This document shows positions 26,694 to 40,400 of a stretch of DNA of 64,000 nt, piece after piece. The notes under the pieces were generated by a model that had not been told where the DNA came from, ran no database searches, and saw nothing but the letters and a program-made list of their open reading frames with translations. The DNA comes from Pseudomonadota bacterium. Its GTDB lineage: Bacteria > Bdellovibrionota > UBA1018 > CAIMNF01. Each line of letters opens with the position of its first letter. Within the stretch, counting starts at the first letter, position 1. Position numbers and translations under genes: made by a program. Where the stretch lies: the NCBI GenBank assembly GCA_027486675.1, contig JAIXOQ010000005.1, forward strand, positions 248,001-312,000. The letters are read 5' to 3'.

Positions 26694-27409
26694 ACTTTGT
26701 CGAACAAATCCAAACCCGAATCCGGGCTAGGGACTACATCTCTGCAGACCATGCACTTCGCAGCGGCATGGCTCAGGATCCAGAAAATGCGGATTATTAC
26801 TACCTGCGCGGAATTTTACGCAGTTACCAAAATCGCCTCAAAGAATCCGTGGATGACCTGAAGCGCGCTCTACATATTGATCCTAAACACACCGATGCAG
26901 CCATCTGCCTGTCGGTCGTGCTCAATGACTTCGGCAAGTACGATGAAGCCAAGCGGGTCTTTGAGCAGGCAAATCAAAGTGTGCTTCTCAAGAAGAACTT
27001 CCAAGACGACACGCAAGTGAATCGTCGTTTTGCGATCAAACACTTTGAAATCGGCGATCTTTACCTGAGGTACCGTCGCTTTGATGAGGCGATCGATGAA
27101 TTCACCCGAGCTGCAAATTTAGATCCTTCCATGATCGATGCCAGAATCCGCCGATCAAAAGCCTATGCAAAAAAGGGTTTCTTGATGCGCGCGATTCAAG
27201 AGCTGCAGCAATTGAAGTCTGAGAATCCTGGGAACCTGGCGGTGAAAGTTCAGCTTGGGTTATTGCATTACAGCCAAGGCAATCACTTGGATGCGGAACT
27301 GGAGTGGGAATCTATTCTTGAAGAAGACCCAACACACCGTGAGGCCCTGTCGTATTTAGAAACGTCTCGATCAAGAGGCCGAGGACGGGATTTGCTCGAT
27401 CGCCGGTGA
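26690..27409 (+). CDS. TPR-repeat protein coupled to bamD
   Basis: A 239-residue cytoplasmic-looking protein (no signal peptide) built of tetratricopeptide repeats. Two repeats lie near residues 24-85 and three more lie near 115-225, with the typical spacing of Tyr/Leu-Gly/Ala-Tyr and Pro at repeat ends (IDPKH, LDPSM, ENPGN, EDPTH). It is coupled to bamD by ATGA. The 3' end overlaps the convergent fliW gene by 39 bases. Function unknown; TPR proteins usually mediate protein contacts. Confidence 0.82.
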   Translation: MNFVEQIQTRIRARDYISADHALRSGMAQDPENADYYYLRGILRSYQNRLKESVDDLKRALHIDPKHTDAAICLSVVLNDFGKYDEAKRVFEQANQSVLLKKNFQDDTQVNRRFAIKHFEIGDLYLRYRRFDEAIDEFTRAANLDPSMIDARIRRSKAYAKKGFLMRAIQELQQLKSENPGNLAVKVQLGLLHYSQGNHLDAELEWESILEEDPTHREALSYLETSRSRGRGRDLLDRR

Positions 27410-27931
27410 TGGGTTCAGGGAAGAAACCTTGAGTGGAATCGCAACTGGTTTTGCGGATGATCCGTTCCCTGTTTTTGCTGGCCTCATTTGTAAAAGGGCA
27501 GCACGTAACTCTTTGAACATCGGGAACTGAATCGGAAGATCGTTCTCCTGAAGTACAACCTGTTTTGCCGTCTGAAGCACTGGATTGATGACAATCGGTG
27601 CTTTCAGATTCGCGGTCATTTCAGAAAGATTGGATGGGATGGTCAAGATCGTGAGCACGCTCGCTACACCTAAGCTTTGAATCTTGAGTTCGCGCGCTTC
27701 ACTTCCGGAGAGTCGGACACGGTAGTCACTTTTAAAAATTCTTGGTTCTAAAACGGGGAAGGCGAGCTTTGGGTTCGTCGTCGACTGAAGCCAAAGAATA
27801 AGTGTGTCATCGCCTGGATCGAATAAGACGTAAGTCTTTTCCTCTGGGAATCCTAAAACTCCACCCGGGATCTGGATCAGATCAGCAGGCGACACAGTCA
27901 TCTCTCCAAAACGCGAAGATTGTATGAGCAT
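27371..27931 (-). CDS. fliW: flagellar assembly factor FliW
   Basis: About 186 residues from the ATG at 27931 (a GTG just precedes it; GGGGGG upstream). The N-terminal 130 residues are FliW: IPGGVLGFPEEKTYVLF near residue 22 and the IPSNLSEMTANLKAPIVIN segment near 100. FliW binds CsrA and blocks its repression of flagellar mRNAs, linking translation to flagellin secretion. csrA lies just upstream on the same strand. A C-terminal extension of about 45 residues beyond the usual length ends in a Ser/Ala tail and overlaps the convergent TPR gene. Confidence 0.93.
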   Translation of the reverse strand: MLIQSSRFGEMTVSPADLIQIPGGVLGFPEEKTYVLFDPGDDTLILWLQSTTNPKLAFPVLEPRIFKSDYRVRLSGSEARELKIQSLGVASVLTILTIPSNLSEMTANLKAPIVINPVLQTAKQVVLQENDLPIQFPMFKELRAALLQMRPAKTGNGSSAKPVAIPLKVSSLNPSPAIEQIPSSAS

Positions 27932-28035
27932 CACATGCCCCCCAATGAAAAGAATAGACGAATGTTCTGGTCAAAGACAAGTCAGAATGTTGACAAAATT
28001 TGGGGACTTCGTTTATGGGAGAGGCGGGACCCGGA

Positions 28036-28260
28036 TCAGCCTTTGAGCTGCTTGGACATTTCGTCGAGAGGAACTGAGCCTGAACCTGCAACTTTGTTCT
28101 GATCTTGAATGGAGGTATAGACCTCTTCACGGTGGATTTTGGTCTCTTTTGGAGCCTGAATCCCGAGACGAACTTGTTTCCCTTTGATTTGAACGACCGT
28201 GATCTTGATATGGTCGTCGATGGCGATGCTCTCGCCCAGCTTCCTTGTGAGTACCAACAT
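28036..28260 (-). CDS. csrA: carbon storage regulator CsrA
   Basis: A 74-residue RNA-binding protein with the whole CsrA signature: MLVLTRKLGESI at the start, VRLGIQAPKE near 30-39, and IHREEVY near 42-48 with the key Arg at 44. CsrA dimers bind GGA motifs in mRNA leaders and change translation or stability. It follows flgL and precedes fliW, the usual partner-antagonist order. The tail is about 10 residues longer than in short CsrA proteins. Confidence 0.96.
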   Translation of the reverse strand: MLVLTRKLGESIAIDDHIKITVVQIKGKQVRLGIQAPKETKIHREEVYTSIQDQNKVAGSGSVPLDEMSKQLKG

Positions 28261-31343: not shown

Positions 31344-31667
31344 TTAAGCGATGCTACTCATGTGATCATCAACGAGCTTATCTGCGATTGCTTCCGCGCT
31401 AACGTTGTATTGTTTATTCTGAATTTTGGCCTTAATTTCAGCAATTTTTGATTCACGAACATCAGGCGCGTCTTGCGCAACTTGTTTCGCGCGCGCCATA
31501 TCTTTTGCGCGTGAGGAGATTTCGGTTTTAACTGAGCCTTCAGTCGAAACTTTTTTTCCTGCTGTTGCGCCTTCAGCGTTATCTGCGCTTTTGGACTTAT
31601 CCGTCTTCTTCGCGGATTGAGTTCCGTTCGCTTGTGCGTTCTGAACTGAGTTTGGATTCACTCGCAT
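31344..31667 (-). CDS. flgM: anti-sigma-28 factor FlgM
   Basis: A 107-residue protein with an excellent AGGAGG site. The N-terminal half is disordered (Lys, Ser, Ala, Asn) as usual for FlgM, and the C-terminal helices (about residues 50-105) contain SSRAKDMARAKQVAQDAPDVRESKIAEIKAKI and the closing ADKLVDDHM, which contact sigma-28 (FliA). It blocks late flagellar genes until it is exported after hook completion. It starts inside the flgJ gene (71-base overlap in another frame). Confidence 0.9.
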   Translation of the reverse strand: MRVNPNSVQNAQANGTQSAKKTDKSKSADNAEGATAGKKVSTEGSVKTEISSRAKDMARAKQVAQDAPDVRESKIAEIKAKIQNKQYNVSAEAIADKLVDDHMSSIA

Positions 31668-32016
31668 GAGTACCTCCTGTACGTGCGTCAGAGGACGTAT
31701 TTCCTCTAGGCTTAGTGTATGTGTCGCGGGTCAAGTAATCAATAATTTGCTGGGCAAGACCTAGCGAGTTCGTACGAGAAGCGACCTCGCTGTACTCCTG
31801 ATCTAACATTCCCTGATAGATATCTGACGCGGAGTTATCTAAAGAGAGATCGGATTTTTCAACGGTATTACGCATGGCGCGCAACATCTCATGCGCGAAG
31901 ACCGCTTCAAGCCCTTGGGCGGCTTCAACAATCCTGGGGTCAACATCCTGACGCTCAGATTTCTGGGTCTTTAAAGCAGGCTCAGAGGATGCGGGAGGAA
32001 CCCGCAAGGAGTTCAT
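31597..32016 (-). CDS. flgJ: FlgJ-type rod-binding protein without muramidase domain
   Basis: About 139 residues from the ATG at 32016, chosen for its ATGA overlap with the preceding small gene. The rod-binding core is LEAVFAHEMLRAMRNTVEKSD (about residues 36-56) and the GMLDQEYSEVA segment near 70. The glucosaminidase half of enterobacterial FlgJ is absent, as in many other phyla, so another enzyme must open the cell wall for the rod. The C-terminal 35 residues are a low-complexity Ser/Thr/Glu/Arg tail, encoded where the gene overlaps flgM. Confidence 0.82.
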   Translation of the reverse strand: MNSLRVPPASSEPALKTQKSERQDVDPRIVEAAQGLEAVFAHEMLRAMRNTVEKSDLSLDNSASDIYQGMLDQEYSEVASRTNSLGLAQQIIDYLTRDTYTKPRGNTSSDARTGGTHASESKLSSERTSERNSIREEDG

Positions 32017-32219
32017 CCCACATCCCCGGCCGCTTGAACGGTTGCGCTGTGGTGACGGTCTTCCTGACCCCCGTTCACCCAAGAGAAAGCGAAAATCGAA
32101 TCGATGTTGCCTGCCATCCTAGCAAGCCTGAGTTCTCGTCCGGTTTCCTGGAACGCCTTCGTCTTCTTTCCATCCTTGGAAGCAGGTGCCACCCGCATCC
32201 CGTTCAAATTTGTCTTCAT
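32013..32219 (-). CDS. 68-residue protein coupled between flgI and flgJ
   Basis: A small gene whose start overlaps the flgI stop as ATGA (32216-32219) and whose stop overlaps the flgJ start as ATGA (32013-32016). This double lock strongly implies it is translated. The product is basic at the start (NLNGMRVAPASKDGKKTKAFQ) with a central helix (about residues 22-46) and no signal peptide or membrane segment. I recognise no family. By position it could be a periplasm-ring assembly helper, a chaperone for FlgJ, or mainly a coupling device. Confidence 0.7.
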   Translation of the reverse strand: MKTNLNGMRVAPASKDGKKTKAFQETGRELRLARMAGNIDSIFAFSWVNGGQEDRHHSATVQAAGDVG

Positions 32220-33256
32220 AAAAGTTCTAGCTCCGCCTGGAGTGCGCCCGTTTCTTTTAAGGTTTGAAAAATGGCTGTGAGGTCTTTGGGCTGAACACCC
32301 AAGGAATTGAGCAGTTTTACAAGGTCTGCAACCGTAGGCGCACGTACCTCTAAGATACGATCGCCCTTTCCTTTTTGACCCTTCACTTCGATTGAAAGAT
32401 CCCCGTGGGATATCGCAACAGGAAGGAGTGTGACCCGGTCGCCGACAACGACAGTCCCTGTGCGTTCATTGAGCACAACGCGAGCGCGTGTATCCACAAC
32501 GACCCGAACATTTTCAATCCGGGACATGAGTTCGATCGTATTGCCCTCATAGTTAAACGGCACGACAATATCGATAGTCGCTCCGTCGCGGGCAGAAGCG
32601 AATTTTCCGCCCAGTTCACCATTTACCAAAGTCACAACACGCGCAGCTGTCGTGAAGTCCGGTTGTGAAAGGGTGAGGCGGAAGCTCTTTTTATCGTTAA
32701 AATTGTTCTCGATGTCTTTCTCAATCATGGCGCCTGAAACAACGCGCCCAACTGTTGGGAAGTTCTTCCCCTGGCCATCCGCATTCGCACCTAAAGTGAC
32801 TGAACCTTGAGCGACTGCGTACACAGCCTGATCACCAGCCCGAAGAGGGGTCACCAGCAACTGTCCGCCCTCCAATGAGGCCGCATCCCCGATAGAACTG
32901 ACGGTGACATCAATCGCGTTTCCGCTGCGAGCAAAGGCCGGCAAACGAGCCGTAACGATCACCGCCGCTGCGTTTTTGGATTTGATCGCAGCATTCTTTT
33001 CTACATCGAGGCCAAGTTTTCCGAATAATCGGCCGAGGGATTTCGCTGTGACATCCGCACTGGAATCACCCGTGCCCTTAAGACCGACCACTAACCCGTA
33101 TCCAATAAGAATATTTTCGCGCACGCCCTTCACTGTTGCGATGTCCTTAAGGCGCGCGCCTTGTGGGATCGCGACATCACTCGCCGCATGCGCGACGATG
33201 GCGGCCATGAGCATACCTGCGACTAAGCTAGCGATTGAGGCGGACTTGATACTCAT
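32216..33256 (-). CDS. flgI: flagellar P-ring protein FlgI
   Basis: A 346-residue secreted protein with a signal peptide of about 24 residues. It has the family hallmarks ARLKDIATVKGVRENILIGYGLVVGLKGTGD near residues 33-64 and VVVDTRARVVLNERTGTVVVG near 250. It forms the ring around the rod in the peptidoglycan layer. The gene begins 29 bases inside the 3' end of flgH and ends in an ATGA overlap with the small coupled gene. Confidence 0.97.
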   Translation of the reverse strand: MSIKSASIASLVAGMLMAAIVAHAASDVAIPQGARLKDIATVKGVRENILIGYGLVVGLKGTGDSSADVTAKSLGRLFGKLGLDVEKNAAIKSKNAAAVIVTARLPAFARSGNAIDVTVSSIGDAASLEGGQLLVTPLRAGDQAVYAVAQGSVTLGANADGQGKNFPTVGRVVSGAMIEKDIENNFNDKKSFRLTLSQPDFTTAARVVTLVNGELGGKFASARDGATIDIVVPFNYEGNTIELMSRIENVRVVVDTRARVVLNERTGTVVVGDRVTLLPVAISHGDLSIEVKGQKGKGDRILEVRAPTVADLVKLLNSLGVQPKDLTAIFQTLKETGALQAELELL

Positions 33257-34894: not shown

Positions 34895-35680
34895 TCATCT
34901 CCCAATATTCACGGTTGCTTCAAGCATCTTGTCCGCCACGGACATGACGCGTGTATTGGATTCAAAGCCTCTCTGCGCTTTAATCATATCGACCATGCTG
35001 TTGGCGACGTTGACGTTCGACGCCTCAAGTGCCCCTTGCATAACTGTCCCACTTCCGGCTTCACCCGGGATTAAGGTTTGAGGCTCACCGCTGGCGGGGG
35101 ATCGTTTGTAATAGTTCCCGCCTATGGACTGAAGTCCGTTTTCATTGGTGAATCTGGAAATTTGAATTTGGCCGAGCACGCTATCGCCTTGGTCGGGCAG
35201 CATCGCTTTTACCTCGCCGTTATCCTTGATCACAACACTCATGGCATTGGATGGAATAGTGATATTGGGCACCAAGAGGGATCCATCCGAGAGACTCACG
35301 CGACCTTGATTGTCTAACTTAAATGCCCCGGTGCGGGTGTAGACGGTTTCGCCGTTCGGGCGTTGAATCTGCAGAAAACCTTTTCCTTCGACCATCACAT
35401 CGAGCGGATTTCCGGTGACCCGGGTTGATCCTTGTTCGAAAAGTTTGTGCGAAGATCCGACCTTGACGCCTAAGCCTTTTTGCACGCCGGTGGGCGCACG
35501 ATTTCCTGCCCCATCCACCTTCCCAGCCTCGCGGACGTTTTCATACATGAGGTCACTAAACTCCGTGACACTGCGTTTGTAGCCATCGGTGTTGACGTTG
35601 GCCATGTCGTTGGCGATGTTGTCGATCTGCGCTTGTTGCGCCTCAAGTCCGGTCGCCGATGTTGAAAGTGCCTTTAACAT
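34895..35680 (-). CDS. flgG: flagellar distal rod protein FlgG
   Basis: A 261-residue axial protein. The N-terminal motif is ALSTSATGLEAQQAQIDNIANDMANVNTDGYK and the C-terminal one is SNVNVANSMVDMIKAQRGFESNTRVMSVADKML, typical of the flagellar rod family and closest in length to FlgG. The central GKGFLQIQRPNGETVYTRTGAF (about residues 91-112) also matches. It builds the distal rod through the P and L rings. It follows flgF by 13 bases. Confidence 0.95.
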   Translation of the reverse strand: MLKALSTSATGLEAQQAQIDNIANDMANVNTDGYKRSVTEFSDLMYENVREAGKVDGAGNRAPTGVQKGLGVKVGSSHKLFEQGSTRVTGNPLDVMVEGKGFLQIQRPNGETVYTRTGAFKLDNQGRVSLSDGSLLVPNITIPSNAMSVVIKDNGEVKAMLPDQGDSVLGQIQISRFTNENGLQSIGGNYYKRSPASGEPQTLIPGEAGSGTVMQGALEASNVNVANSMVDMIKAQRGFESNTRVMSVADKMLEATVNIGR

Positions 35681-35693
35681 AGTTTAATTCCCC

Positions 35694-36542
35694 TCAAAAT
35701 TTCCCGATTTCGTTCGCTTCTTTTCCAAGCATCGAATCCACAGTCTTCATCGCCTTTAAATCCATCTCAAACATGCGGTTGGCTTTGATGAGTTTTGTCA
35801 TCTCTTCAACAGGATTCACATTGGACTGTTCAAGCATCCCTTGGCGAACCATAGTCAAAGATGCGGGCGCTTCTGGATTCGTCGCTGGATCCCCAATGTT
35901 TTGATAGAGGCCATCGCCAACTTTTTTCATCTTTGGACCATTCTGAAACTCAACAATACTGAGTTTTGCAACCTGATCATCTTCCATATAAAGCTCACCG
36001 AGTTCATTGATGTGCACTGCTCCATCACGGCCGGAGAGATTAATGAGGCGTGCCTGCGGGTCAGAGGATGCTGCCGCCGGACTACGGGCTTCTGCTGCAG
36101 GCGCTGTTTTTGCGGAAAGGACCGGATAACCCTGCGTCGTAATTAATCTTCCGTCAGCACCCAGCTTTAAAGATCCTAAACGCGTGAAACGAATTCCTTG
36201 TGGAGTTGCGACTTCAATGAAGCCTGGGCCTTCCAGCGCAATATCGAGCGGATTTTCCGTTACTTTTAAGCCGCCTTGGCGAAAATTGGTGTGGGTCCCA
36301 CTGACCATCGTGTACGCCTGGTCGCGGCCTTCCATGGGGTAGAGATCTTTGTCTTTGATCGGGCTTCGGGGAATCCCTGGGGATGGATTGGGATTTTCTG
36401 AGCGGGCTAGAATTTCTTTAAAAGTCACATCGTCGGTCTTGAATCCTTGCGTATTCATGTTAGCAAGATTGTTTGCGATGGTATCAACCAGCTGATCTTT
36501 AGCGATTGCGCCCGACATGGGCACCCACAATGGACGTGACAT
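35694..36542 (-). CDS. flgF: flagellar proximal rod protein FlgF
   Basis: A 282-residue rod protein with VPMSGAIAKDQLVDTIANNLANMNTQGFK near the start and EMTKLIKANRMFEMDLKAMKTVDSMLGK near the end. The single cleft difference from FlgG is an Ala/Pro-rich insert (about residues 153-166). It is the first gene of the - strand flagellar operon, with GGAGGG upstream. A sigma-54-like promoter and a 7-codon leader frame lie just before it. Confidence 0.9.
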   Translation of the reverse strand: MSRPLWVPMSGAIAKDQLVDTIANNLANMNTQGFKTDDVTFKEILARSENPNPSPGIPRSPIKDKDLYPMEGRDQAYTMVSGTHTNFRQGGLKVTENPLDIALEGPGFIEVATPQGIRFTRLGSLKLGADGRLITTQGYPVLSAKTAPAAEARSPAAASSDPQARLINLSGRDGAVHINELGELYMEDDQVAKLSIVEFQNGPKMKKVGDGLYQNIGDPATNPEAPASLTMVRQGMLEQSNVNPVEEMTKLIKANRMFEMDLKAMKTVDSMLGKEANEIGKF

Positions 36543-37477: not shown

Positions 37478-40400
37478 CTATTCAGAAGGTTGACCGCTTG
37501 AACTCTTCAATTCCTTGATTAAGTTCAGATCAAATTCATCGACGCAGCGGTTTTCCTGCATGCGTTCCCACCCAATCTTTGAACTACATCGTTTGATCAT
37601 CGCCTGATAAATAGGAAGTCTCAAGGCTTCCAAATATTTTGGTGCACACTGATTAAATGCGAAGTTAAGGTGATCATCCAGATCTTCACAGGATATTGTA
37701 ACGAGTTGAGGGGTGAGGATGCTCACCGCTGCAGGTGTTGGGCAGAAGATTCTCCCAACGTTGTTTTTCCGACTGGATACAACACTATGCGAAATGCTTT
37801 CTCTCGGCCGAACTGCGCAATCGGTGCAATTCGGATCACGTAAATCCCCTTCAGAAGAAATTCCATTCAGTTTCGAAAGAACTTCAACATCATCAAAAGA
37901 ACACCGTTGGATCAGGTGTTCAGCTACTAAACCTAGCATCGATTTTGAATACTTTGGACGTGCAGAACCATTGGGTTTCTGGTTATGGAATGAAATCAAC
38001 TTTTCAGAATATTCTTTGCAATCTTCTCCGTTAGGATCATTCGGGTAGGAAATCTCTAAGTCTTTACATTGAAGTTTTTGACCAGCCTCTGGCGAAATTC
38101 TCTTAGCAGCCGCCTGATATTTCTCACACGCCTCTTCATCCCAGAAATTAATCCCCAGTTCATTCACGGCGTTTTCCTTTTTTAGGATATTGCTCTTTGA
38201 TGGGTCAAAGGATACTTCTGGATGAGATACCATAAACCTTTGAAACGCCTTCACTCCGTCGTCGTATTGGTCCGGCCTGCAGCTTGCGATGAAGATCAGC
38301 CAAATGTCTAAACTCCTGCTAGAGGCAGATTCTGGATGAGTGGTGAGGAGATATTCAGATACTGGATCGGCAGGACAGTAATTTTGGCCACGCATAAGCC
38401 TACCAACATCTCTTCCACTCACACCGGCTGCCTTGAGAACTTCGACATAGTCCGAATCCTGTTGCTCCCGATGTCTAACTAATTGCCGAGCAATGTCTTC
38501 GCGCAACTCTCCGCCAGTGCCCACGTCCCGCAGTAGCACACGTATTAGGTTCGGACTTTTAGCTTTCGCTGCAAGCTTGCCACATGCACCAACTGCGCCT
38601 TGCTCCCTATTTGAAAGTTCAGAGCTTCCTATTTGGAAGAGTCCGATCATGTTTGCAGCAAGAGTTGCGAATTTTTCAGGGTCACCTTCATTCGTCCCTC
38701 TTTCACACACCATAGAAATCACATTTCGATCTCTGAGAGGAGGTGTGTGCGCCAAAGGTTTCAATGAAGAGACGTACCGATTCATGAGACGTCCAAGGTC
38801 TTCAGCATTTAAATTCTTATTGAGTATGAGGCGCTCTAGCACCGTATTTCCATCAGCGTCCAGTTGATCTAACTCTTCCGGAATCAGCCCTTCATGACCT
38901 TTCATGAGTTCTTTGACGCCTGCGACCTTGCTCGGGAAAGACTTCGGATTGTAAGAGTGTGCTGTATGATTTTCCGGATCTAATTCCATTAACCTGGATC
39001 CGTCAGTTGAAACAAACATTTGAATGAATTGCGACAAACGTCCGCCCGCTTTAAAACAACTCCTCATACGCCTGTAATGATCTGTTCTAAGGAATATTGT
39101 TTCCAAGTTTTCATATTTTACGGTTGAAGAAATAATATCCCACAGCCAAAAACCCTGAGCCTCATTGCATTCATCAGGTAATCTTTGTGCTAAAGCTTCA
39201 AAAGCAGTAAGACCATCACCATTTCTATGATTCTTGCCGCTCATAAGCGCGCGAAGAACTGGCTCAGTCCTGTCCTTGTTAAACTTTCTACTCATACAAT
39301 CTTGCATGGACTCCTGAAGACGAAGTCTCGTCTGAACGCCCTCCCATGCATTCAATAAAGCATGCCGGATCGGCAAGTTGCCATCGCTATCCGGCGTTAA
39401 CGCCTCACCTTGTCGCATGAGATCTGGAATAAATGTTAAATATCCAATATCACTCGACCTCCTGCCTCCGTCCCAGTCGCTACCCAGTAGGCCTGCGATG
39501 TAGTGGGCTGGGGTGTGTCCCTGACTGTTGATGGATTGTTTCTGTTTGCTATCATTGAGAGCGGAAGCTACCCAATCTGGAGGATAAGCAAACTCCCCTT
39601 CGTCATCCACAAACTGAGTCATTCTAAGACCCGCCCAAGTCTTATTCACATCGGTTAAATTTGGCGCCTTTCGTTCGGTATCCTCTTGATCAGGGTCACC
39701 CCATGGTCGCGTAACCCTAATGGAGGAGATCTGATTGCCGATCTGCTCATCCCCTAAGATCTCAAGTTCCATCCGAGCTAAATCGCCGTCGGGAACGTCA
39801 GGGCCACCAGGGAGATCCCACGGCGTATGGATCTGATCGATCTTGGACTGATTGTCGCCTCCGACTTGTGCTGAATCTTGCGCTGAATTTGCGTATCGAC
39901 TTCTAAGAGCAGCTACATCCAGCGAATAATTCTTTAGAAGGTCAATTCCTGACTCAACGTAAAGCTTCCGGGCCTTCATCGGTTCAAGCTTCGCTCGTAA
40001 GTAGAACTCCATGGGAACCGGAATCGGTGGGTTCTTGATTGTCGATAGTCCACTCAGCGGTCCGTAGTCCTTACGCGCTTTTCCATAGGCTGTGCTTTCA
40101 TAACCGATCAAATGATCGCCATCAGGTCCGGATTCAATTGCACCAAAGAGAACATGGCCTGACTCCAAGATTGCGACTGGACGAGCCGACTTTTGTTTGT
40201 CCACAAGAGGCGGAAGAAGAGGGTTCGCATTATTGGGAACATCTTTTTTTGGCTTTAATCGATAGAGGAGAAGCTGATAATCCGTACTTCCATCGCACTG
40301 GGTCCGCCACTGGTAGATCACATCCAATGGATTTGCATATGCCTTGTTGTAGGGAATTTGTCCTTGCGTGTCTTTTGCAGCTCTTGCGAACTCTCCCAAC

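Follow-up and report, generated by a model that had tools for sequence, protein, structure and literature searches.

A candidate CsrA-binding RNA inside a coupled leader reading frame between flgI and flgJ, and its relationship to APsRNA1 of Bdellovibrio

What is the role of a reading frame of only 68 codons set between flgI and flgJ in a flagellar operon? The frame lies at 32013-32219 on the minus strand of a stretch of 64,000 nucleotides (the window) from a member of the Bdellovibrionota. The gene order on that strand is flgF, flgG, flgA, flgH, flgI, the 68-codon frame, flgJ, flgM, flgN, flgK, flgL, csrA and fliW, where flgF, flgG, flgK and flgL were named from reading their translations. 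Both flanking genes are on the minus strand and are identified by domain matches, flgI (32216-33256) by FlgI PF02119 (5.9e-107) and flgJ (31597-32016), with a rod-binding domain only, by PF10135 (1.7e-12). The leader ORF shares an ATGA with each neighbor. At 32216-32219 its ATG (32219-32217) overlaps the TGA of flgI (32218-32216), and at 32013-32016 its TGA (32015-32013) overlaps the ATG of flgJ (32016-32014). The coordinates and strand of the frame and both four-base overlaps, as reported in a preliminary description of this DNA, are exact in the window sequence.

That description also held the arrangement to be unlikely by chance and to imply tight translational coupling, and relatives bear this out. 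In 43 relatives, members of the window's order that carry the core motif discussed below, the reading frame containing the motif terminates at a start codon, presumed to be that of flgJ, in 39 cases (4-nt overlap in 33, 1-nt overlap in 5, and abutting in 1). The remaining two frames over the same stretch average 3.6-3.8 stops. Toward flgI, in 35 of the 43 genomes, the motif frame stays open beyond the stop codon of flgI. With FlgI as the anchor, flgI was located in 52 of the 55 order genomes, and a small frame with the peptide stretch IQET..PARMVG, the kind of conserved frame that the preliminary description proposed to look for, fills the flgI-flgJ gap in nearly all order genomes where the gap is readable. 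With 39 of 43 frames stopping at the start of flgJ, the leader ORF is very probably translated, coupling flgI to flgJ. For family f4 (L021), flgI directly overlaps flgJ and the element is absent. A search of genome contigs with back-translated FlgI gave no confirmed locus. In L039 (family f6), the reading frame beyond the core continues in phase into the rod-binding domain of FlgJ by way of a signal-peptide-like stretch, so that this FlgJ may start differently.

One explanation of such a frame is an ordinary small flagellar protein that is itself the functional unit, any nucleotide conservation being incidental. Retention of the frame in nearly all order members speaks for it, as does the sister family f5, where the N-terminal MIxWxDFxLDDxxGPxL keeps its residues and the synonymous codons vary freely (Gly appears via four codons, Leu via five). 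Loci with this motif at the leader ORF start include L034, L029, L037 and others. Judged by its codons, the f5 N-terminus is a selected peptide, the sole part of the leader ORFs with real peptide-level conservation. The motif is missing from the window's own frame. The 68-aa product of the latter has no family match in Pfam or PHROGs; protein searches with it detected no relative in 12 other genomes of the family and nothing credible outside its own locus. An "unknown flagellar protein" is unsupported for the window product. The small-protein reading of the leader ORF would be half the story at best.

Through the middle of the frame the conservation is, on codon usage, one of nucleotides and not only of peptide. 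The DNA underlying IQET..PARMVG is a bipartite core, CAGGAAAC-N19-GCTAGGATGG (exact pattern at 32114-32150, minus strand), with the box CAGGAAAC at 32143-32150, minus. By this exact pattern, the sole means of counting the window element across whole genomes, 40 of the 55 order genomes have one copy each, and the other phylum genomes searched have none. A scan of approximately 85,000 species gave 41 stretches, nearly all from the window's group. Third codon positions of the core are frozen, more so than anywhere in FlgI. For example, in 31 coupled frames the codon counts are CAG 31/31, ATC 30/30, AGG 28/29 and GCT 27/28, compared to a FlgI control from 28 of the same genomes where the top-codon share is below 0.93 in all conserved non-Met columns (the highest is 0.89). 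The box-to-box spacing also varies, with 17 and 20 nt in f6 versus 18 elsewhere, and the reading frame of the first box shifts there against that of the second. Genus g19 retains the first box and has lost the GCTAGGATGG core. A promoter reading of the two boxes was dropped, since hairpin covariation and matches to an RNA model explain the boxes better; the spacer moreover holds part of the stem of hairpin B.

Three hairpins, each with GGA in the loop, are found in the minus-strand transcript of the window element. Hairpin A (UUCC-AAGGAU-GGAA, 32168-32181) and hairpin C (GGUC-AGGAA-GACC, 32057-32069) have stems that covary in relatives. Variants of A with a constant GGA loop include GCGUC-AUGGAA-GAUGC as well as the window form, and those of C include CCGGC-AUGGAA-GCCGG, GCUGGC-AAGGAA-GCCAGU and GAAC-AGGAU-GUUC. 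Hairpin B (GCUUGC-UAGGAUG-GCAGGC, 32109-32127) has an invariant loop in 32 relatives; as a whole it is nearly invariant (GCYUGC-UAGGAUG-GYRGGY), so that its stem yields little covariation. With shuffled 3' arms as the null, the first five pairs of hairpin A are paired in 137 of 160 cells (shuffled mean 102, maximum 119), and those of hairpin C in 128 of 160 (shuffled mean 99, maximum 110). Double changes number 32 for A and 30 for C versus 11 when shuffled. For the whole structure, 92.5% of cells are paired, with 39 double-changed cells versus 10.7 in shuffles. Changes in the hairpin stems alter amino acids yet keep the pairing. This, together with the frozen third positions, spacer lengths of 17, 18 and 20 nt across the motif, the lack of a protein family match and the absence of the f5 motif from the window product, makes a small protein as the functional unit very unlikely. 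Neutral filler, an accidental open frame between coupled genes, would fit the lack of homologues in protein searches with the window product. It is contradicted by the order-wide, once-per-genome core, the covariation and the retention of the frame, and can hardly be credited.

GGA hairpins with stems of at least 4 pairs occur at 3.07 per element in the 43 relatives versus 0.99 in dinucleotide shuffles. In the window itself the element is one of three 127-nt stretches of such density on both strands of the 64 kb (0.09% of positions). One cluster of GGA-in-loop hairpins lies at 35604-35850 (minus), at the end of flgF and the start of flgG, and is either a further CsrA site or chance; another dense stretch is at 38754-38920 (minus), within a frame of 1146 aa. 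In overall folding energy the window segment does not stand out (z -0.43), and the case for an RNA element is one of comparison rather than of stability. Not all relatives keep every loop. In part of the window's own family, the loop of hairpin C has AUGAA, ACGAU or AAGAG in place of GGA. Family f9 (L136, L140, L141, L143) has a flgI-flgJ gap of only ~95-145 nt with, by eye, apparently two GGA hairpins beside the flgJ start (e.g., CCC-AGGAU-GGG and UACC-AGGAA-GGUA in L136), which suggests a shorter cis-only form.

Other families of the phylum have a longer RNA, of ~195-205 nt, between flgI and flgJ. Its hairpins are ACAC-AUGGAU-GUGU, CC-AUGGAU-GG, GUUUC-UCGCAG-GAAAC, GGUC-AAGGAUU-GACC and GUGC-AGGAU-GCAC, the last being the counterpart of hairpin C, and it also has a long-range helix and a U-tract. 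A covariance model of this RNA, R1, was built from ten sequences of other phylum families with nothing from the window's order; its alignment is 91.5% paired, with 21 double-changed cells versus 6.4 shuffled. Of 369 phylum genomes, 120 have an R1 match, each a single copy, across families f10-f20 (at least 11 families). Most have E values of 1e-10 to 1e-50, and a handful near 1e-3 are doubtful. In G187, which we take to be Bdellovibrio bacteriovorus HD100, the R1 match is at 499,379-499,583 on the plus strand. This identification of the genome is supported by a coordinate check, since the published interval of merRNA in G187 contains a c-di-GMP-I riboswitch on the expected strand. The HD100 transcript APsRNA1 was mapped to 499,375-499,581, plus strand, 207 nt (attack phase 50,451 RPKM, growth phase 3,181 RPKM); no FliA promoter was marked and no function was reported for it (Karunker et al. 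2013, Table 2, PMC3627812). By these coordinates, the phylum-wide flgI-flgJ RNA coincides with the APsRNA1 transcript in the genome read as HD100. Here too the RNA is between flgI and flgJ, and flgM, flgN, csrA and fliW lie behind it. When eight published attack-phase sRNAs were compared, a small sample, APsRNA1 was the only one enriched in GGA hairpins (3 versus 0.68 shuffled).

The sole R1 match in the window is at 32053-32179 on the minus strand and covers model positions 58-171, collinear. Its score is weak (10.8 bits, E 0.06 over 151 kb), but it lies where expected, on the right strand and with its parts in the right order. R2, a model from the window's order, likewise gave weak matches (E ~0.01) between flgI and flgJ in two sister-family genomes, L142 and L137. 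The window element shares with APsRNA1 the box CAGGAAAC (which reads GCAGGAAAC in APsRNA1-family RNAs), collinear GGA hairpins, gene neighbors and, with the family in general, a location between flgI and flgJ. By this comparison it is collinear with, and related to, APsRNA1-family RNA. APsRNA1 is 207 nt long and has its own start site, a first hairpin and a closing helix with U-tract. In the window form, that hairpin, the helix and the U-tract terminator are all missing, and no terminator or promoter of its own was recognized at the element. Because the R1 match covers positions 58-171 only and a terminator was not found, the window form is classed as a reduced relative of the APsRNA1 family, not a full member. 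An Rfam search with the window and its relatives gave no credible family; the Csr/Rsm families were unmatched, and the element is absent from Rfam 15. No riboswitch class was recognized in the element, the c-di-GMP-I aptamer of merRNA being found only elsewhere in HD100.

What such an RNA might bind is suggested by its loops and by its neighbors. An apical-loop GGA is the recognition signature of CsrA/RsmA (PMC4894983, PMC7652899). The window has csrA, the presumed binding partner, at 28036-28260 and fliW at 27371-27934 (both minus strand), ~4 kb downstream of the element in the same gene run; in HD100, too, csrA and fliW belong to the gene run of the RNA. FliW is a protein antagonist of CsrA in other bacteria. 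The CsrA of the window retains Arg44 (E. coli numbering), as read from its sequence. In the phylum, 334 of 369 genomes have csrA, almost always as a single copy and in many cases close to the RNA. The segment is a good candidate for, and probably is, a CsrB/RsmZ-style CsrA-binding RNA within a short leader ORF coupled to flgI and flgJ. The small gene appears to be mainly RNA, linking the global regulator CsrA to flagellum building phylum-wide. A structured RNA for another ligand or protein (e.g., a riboswitch, a ribosome-stalling element or a site of mRNA-end processing), its GGA loops having nothing to do with CsrA, is improbable. It gains from the absence of an Rfam match, from CsrA binding being a prediction from sequence, and from the CAGGAAAC box, which is strongly conserved and in most sequences outside the GGA-loop hairpins. 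However, CsrA recognizes just such repeats of GGA in apical loops of 5-7 nt on unrelated stems (PMC4894983, PMC7652899), and this reading leaves aside the wide occurrence of csrA, often close to the RNA.

How CsrA might act at this site can be outlined with the help of known systems. In E. coli, CsrA represses iraD through a coupled short ORF with a stop overlapping the next start (PMC5574718). By analogy, ribosomes finishing flgI would re-start at the ATGA, unfold the hairpins in crossing the leader ORF, and re-start at flgJ. CsrA dimers would bridge the GGA hairpins, and hairpin-bound CsrA would block the passage of ribosomes, so that output of flgJ and the genes downstream would fall as with the iraD leader ORF. 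Action purely in cis, in which CsrA would control flgJ and the genes after it through this RNA as an operator, with no titration in trans, is a rather unlikely alternative, although it draws on the overlap of the leader ORF stop with a start, presumed to be that of flgJ, in 38 of 43 relatives (4 nt in 33, 1 nt in 5), on the window element having no recognized terminator or promoter of its own, and on the best-studied precedent acting in cis. A decoy fits better the related RNA in HD100, with its match to a separate and abundant transcript and a conserved U-tract. Untranslated copies of the element may serve as a CsrA decoy; the Bdellovibrio RNA, with its own start site and terminator, could then be set free as decoy RNA, and in the window's order the terminator may have been lost with only the mRNA-embedded form remaining.

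In 8 of 16 genera of the long-RNA families the frame from the flgI stop is open through the RNA and U-tract, versus 0 of 32 counts for the other frames (Fisher p 3.4e-5), and in all eight open genera, HD100 included, the ORF ends beyond the U-tract. Translation arriving from flgI would therefore run through the entire RNA, terminator included. Ribosomes from flgI may in this way prevent the terminator from forming, and transcripts from the RNA's own start would go untranslated and terminate. Tentatively, then, the element may be a CsrA decoy nested in a coupled ORF with its fate decided by translation: transcripts crossed by ribosomes from flgI would have their hairpins and terminator opened and would read into flgJ-flgM and on to csrA-fliW, and those from an internal promoter, free of ribosomes, would fold, terminate and be set free to trap CsrA.

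Several known systems resemble parts of this arrangement. Csr-family decoy RNAs are best known from Gammaproteobacteria, and to our knowledge FliW is absent from that group. CsrB/CsrC and RsmX/Y/Z also have several hairpins with apical-loop GGA, and the long form of the element shares their terminator-like 3' end. These are established CsrA/RsmA decoys, whereas CsrA binding by the element is predicted only; the latter is unmatched in Rfam, overlaps an ORF that is very probably translated and occurs in a flagellar operon of FliW-bearing bacteria. The idlP-iraD leader of E. coli has a short ORF with a stop overlapping the next start and several CsrA-type sites (PMC5574718). In the present case the sites are in the ORF body, the ORF is also coupled upstream, and a relative exists as a free sRNA. 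The flaA mRNA of Campylobacter jejuni, a CsrA sponge, is a flagellar message with GGA hairpins from a bacterium that has FliW; CsrA regulates it and is in turn titrated by it (PMC4894983). Its sites are in the 5' leader of a flagellin mRNA rather than between structural genes, and C. jejuni is without a Csr-type sRNA. In the literature searched, no link between Bdellovibrio APsRNA1 and CsrA was found, nor was the combination of a CsrA-binding RNA and coupled leader ORF phylum-wide before flgJ.

A 2020 review noted that joint action of FliW and sRNAs on CsrA in any species 'remains to be determined' (PMC7652899). Across a phylum of predators, this locus brings csrA, fliW and a Csr-type RNA candidate together within a single run of flagellar genes, and in a strain amenable to genetics one of the copies coincides in position with an abundant transcript. 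If the nested decoy were real, these bacteria would pair an RNA antagonist and FliW against CsrA. The orphan sRNA APsRNA1 gains a testable role, and the leader ORF is a clear example of a small protein gene that conceals an RNA element. The gene behind the RNA also differs in its domains: flgJ of HD100 (L191:2643-3350) encodes a rod-binding domain with a weak Peptidase_M23 match, and FlgJ of the window is rod-binding only.
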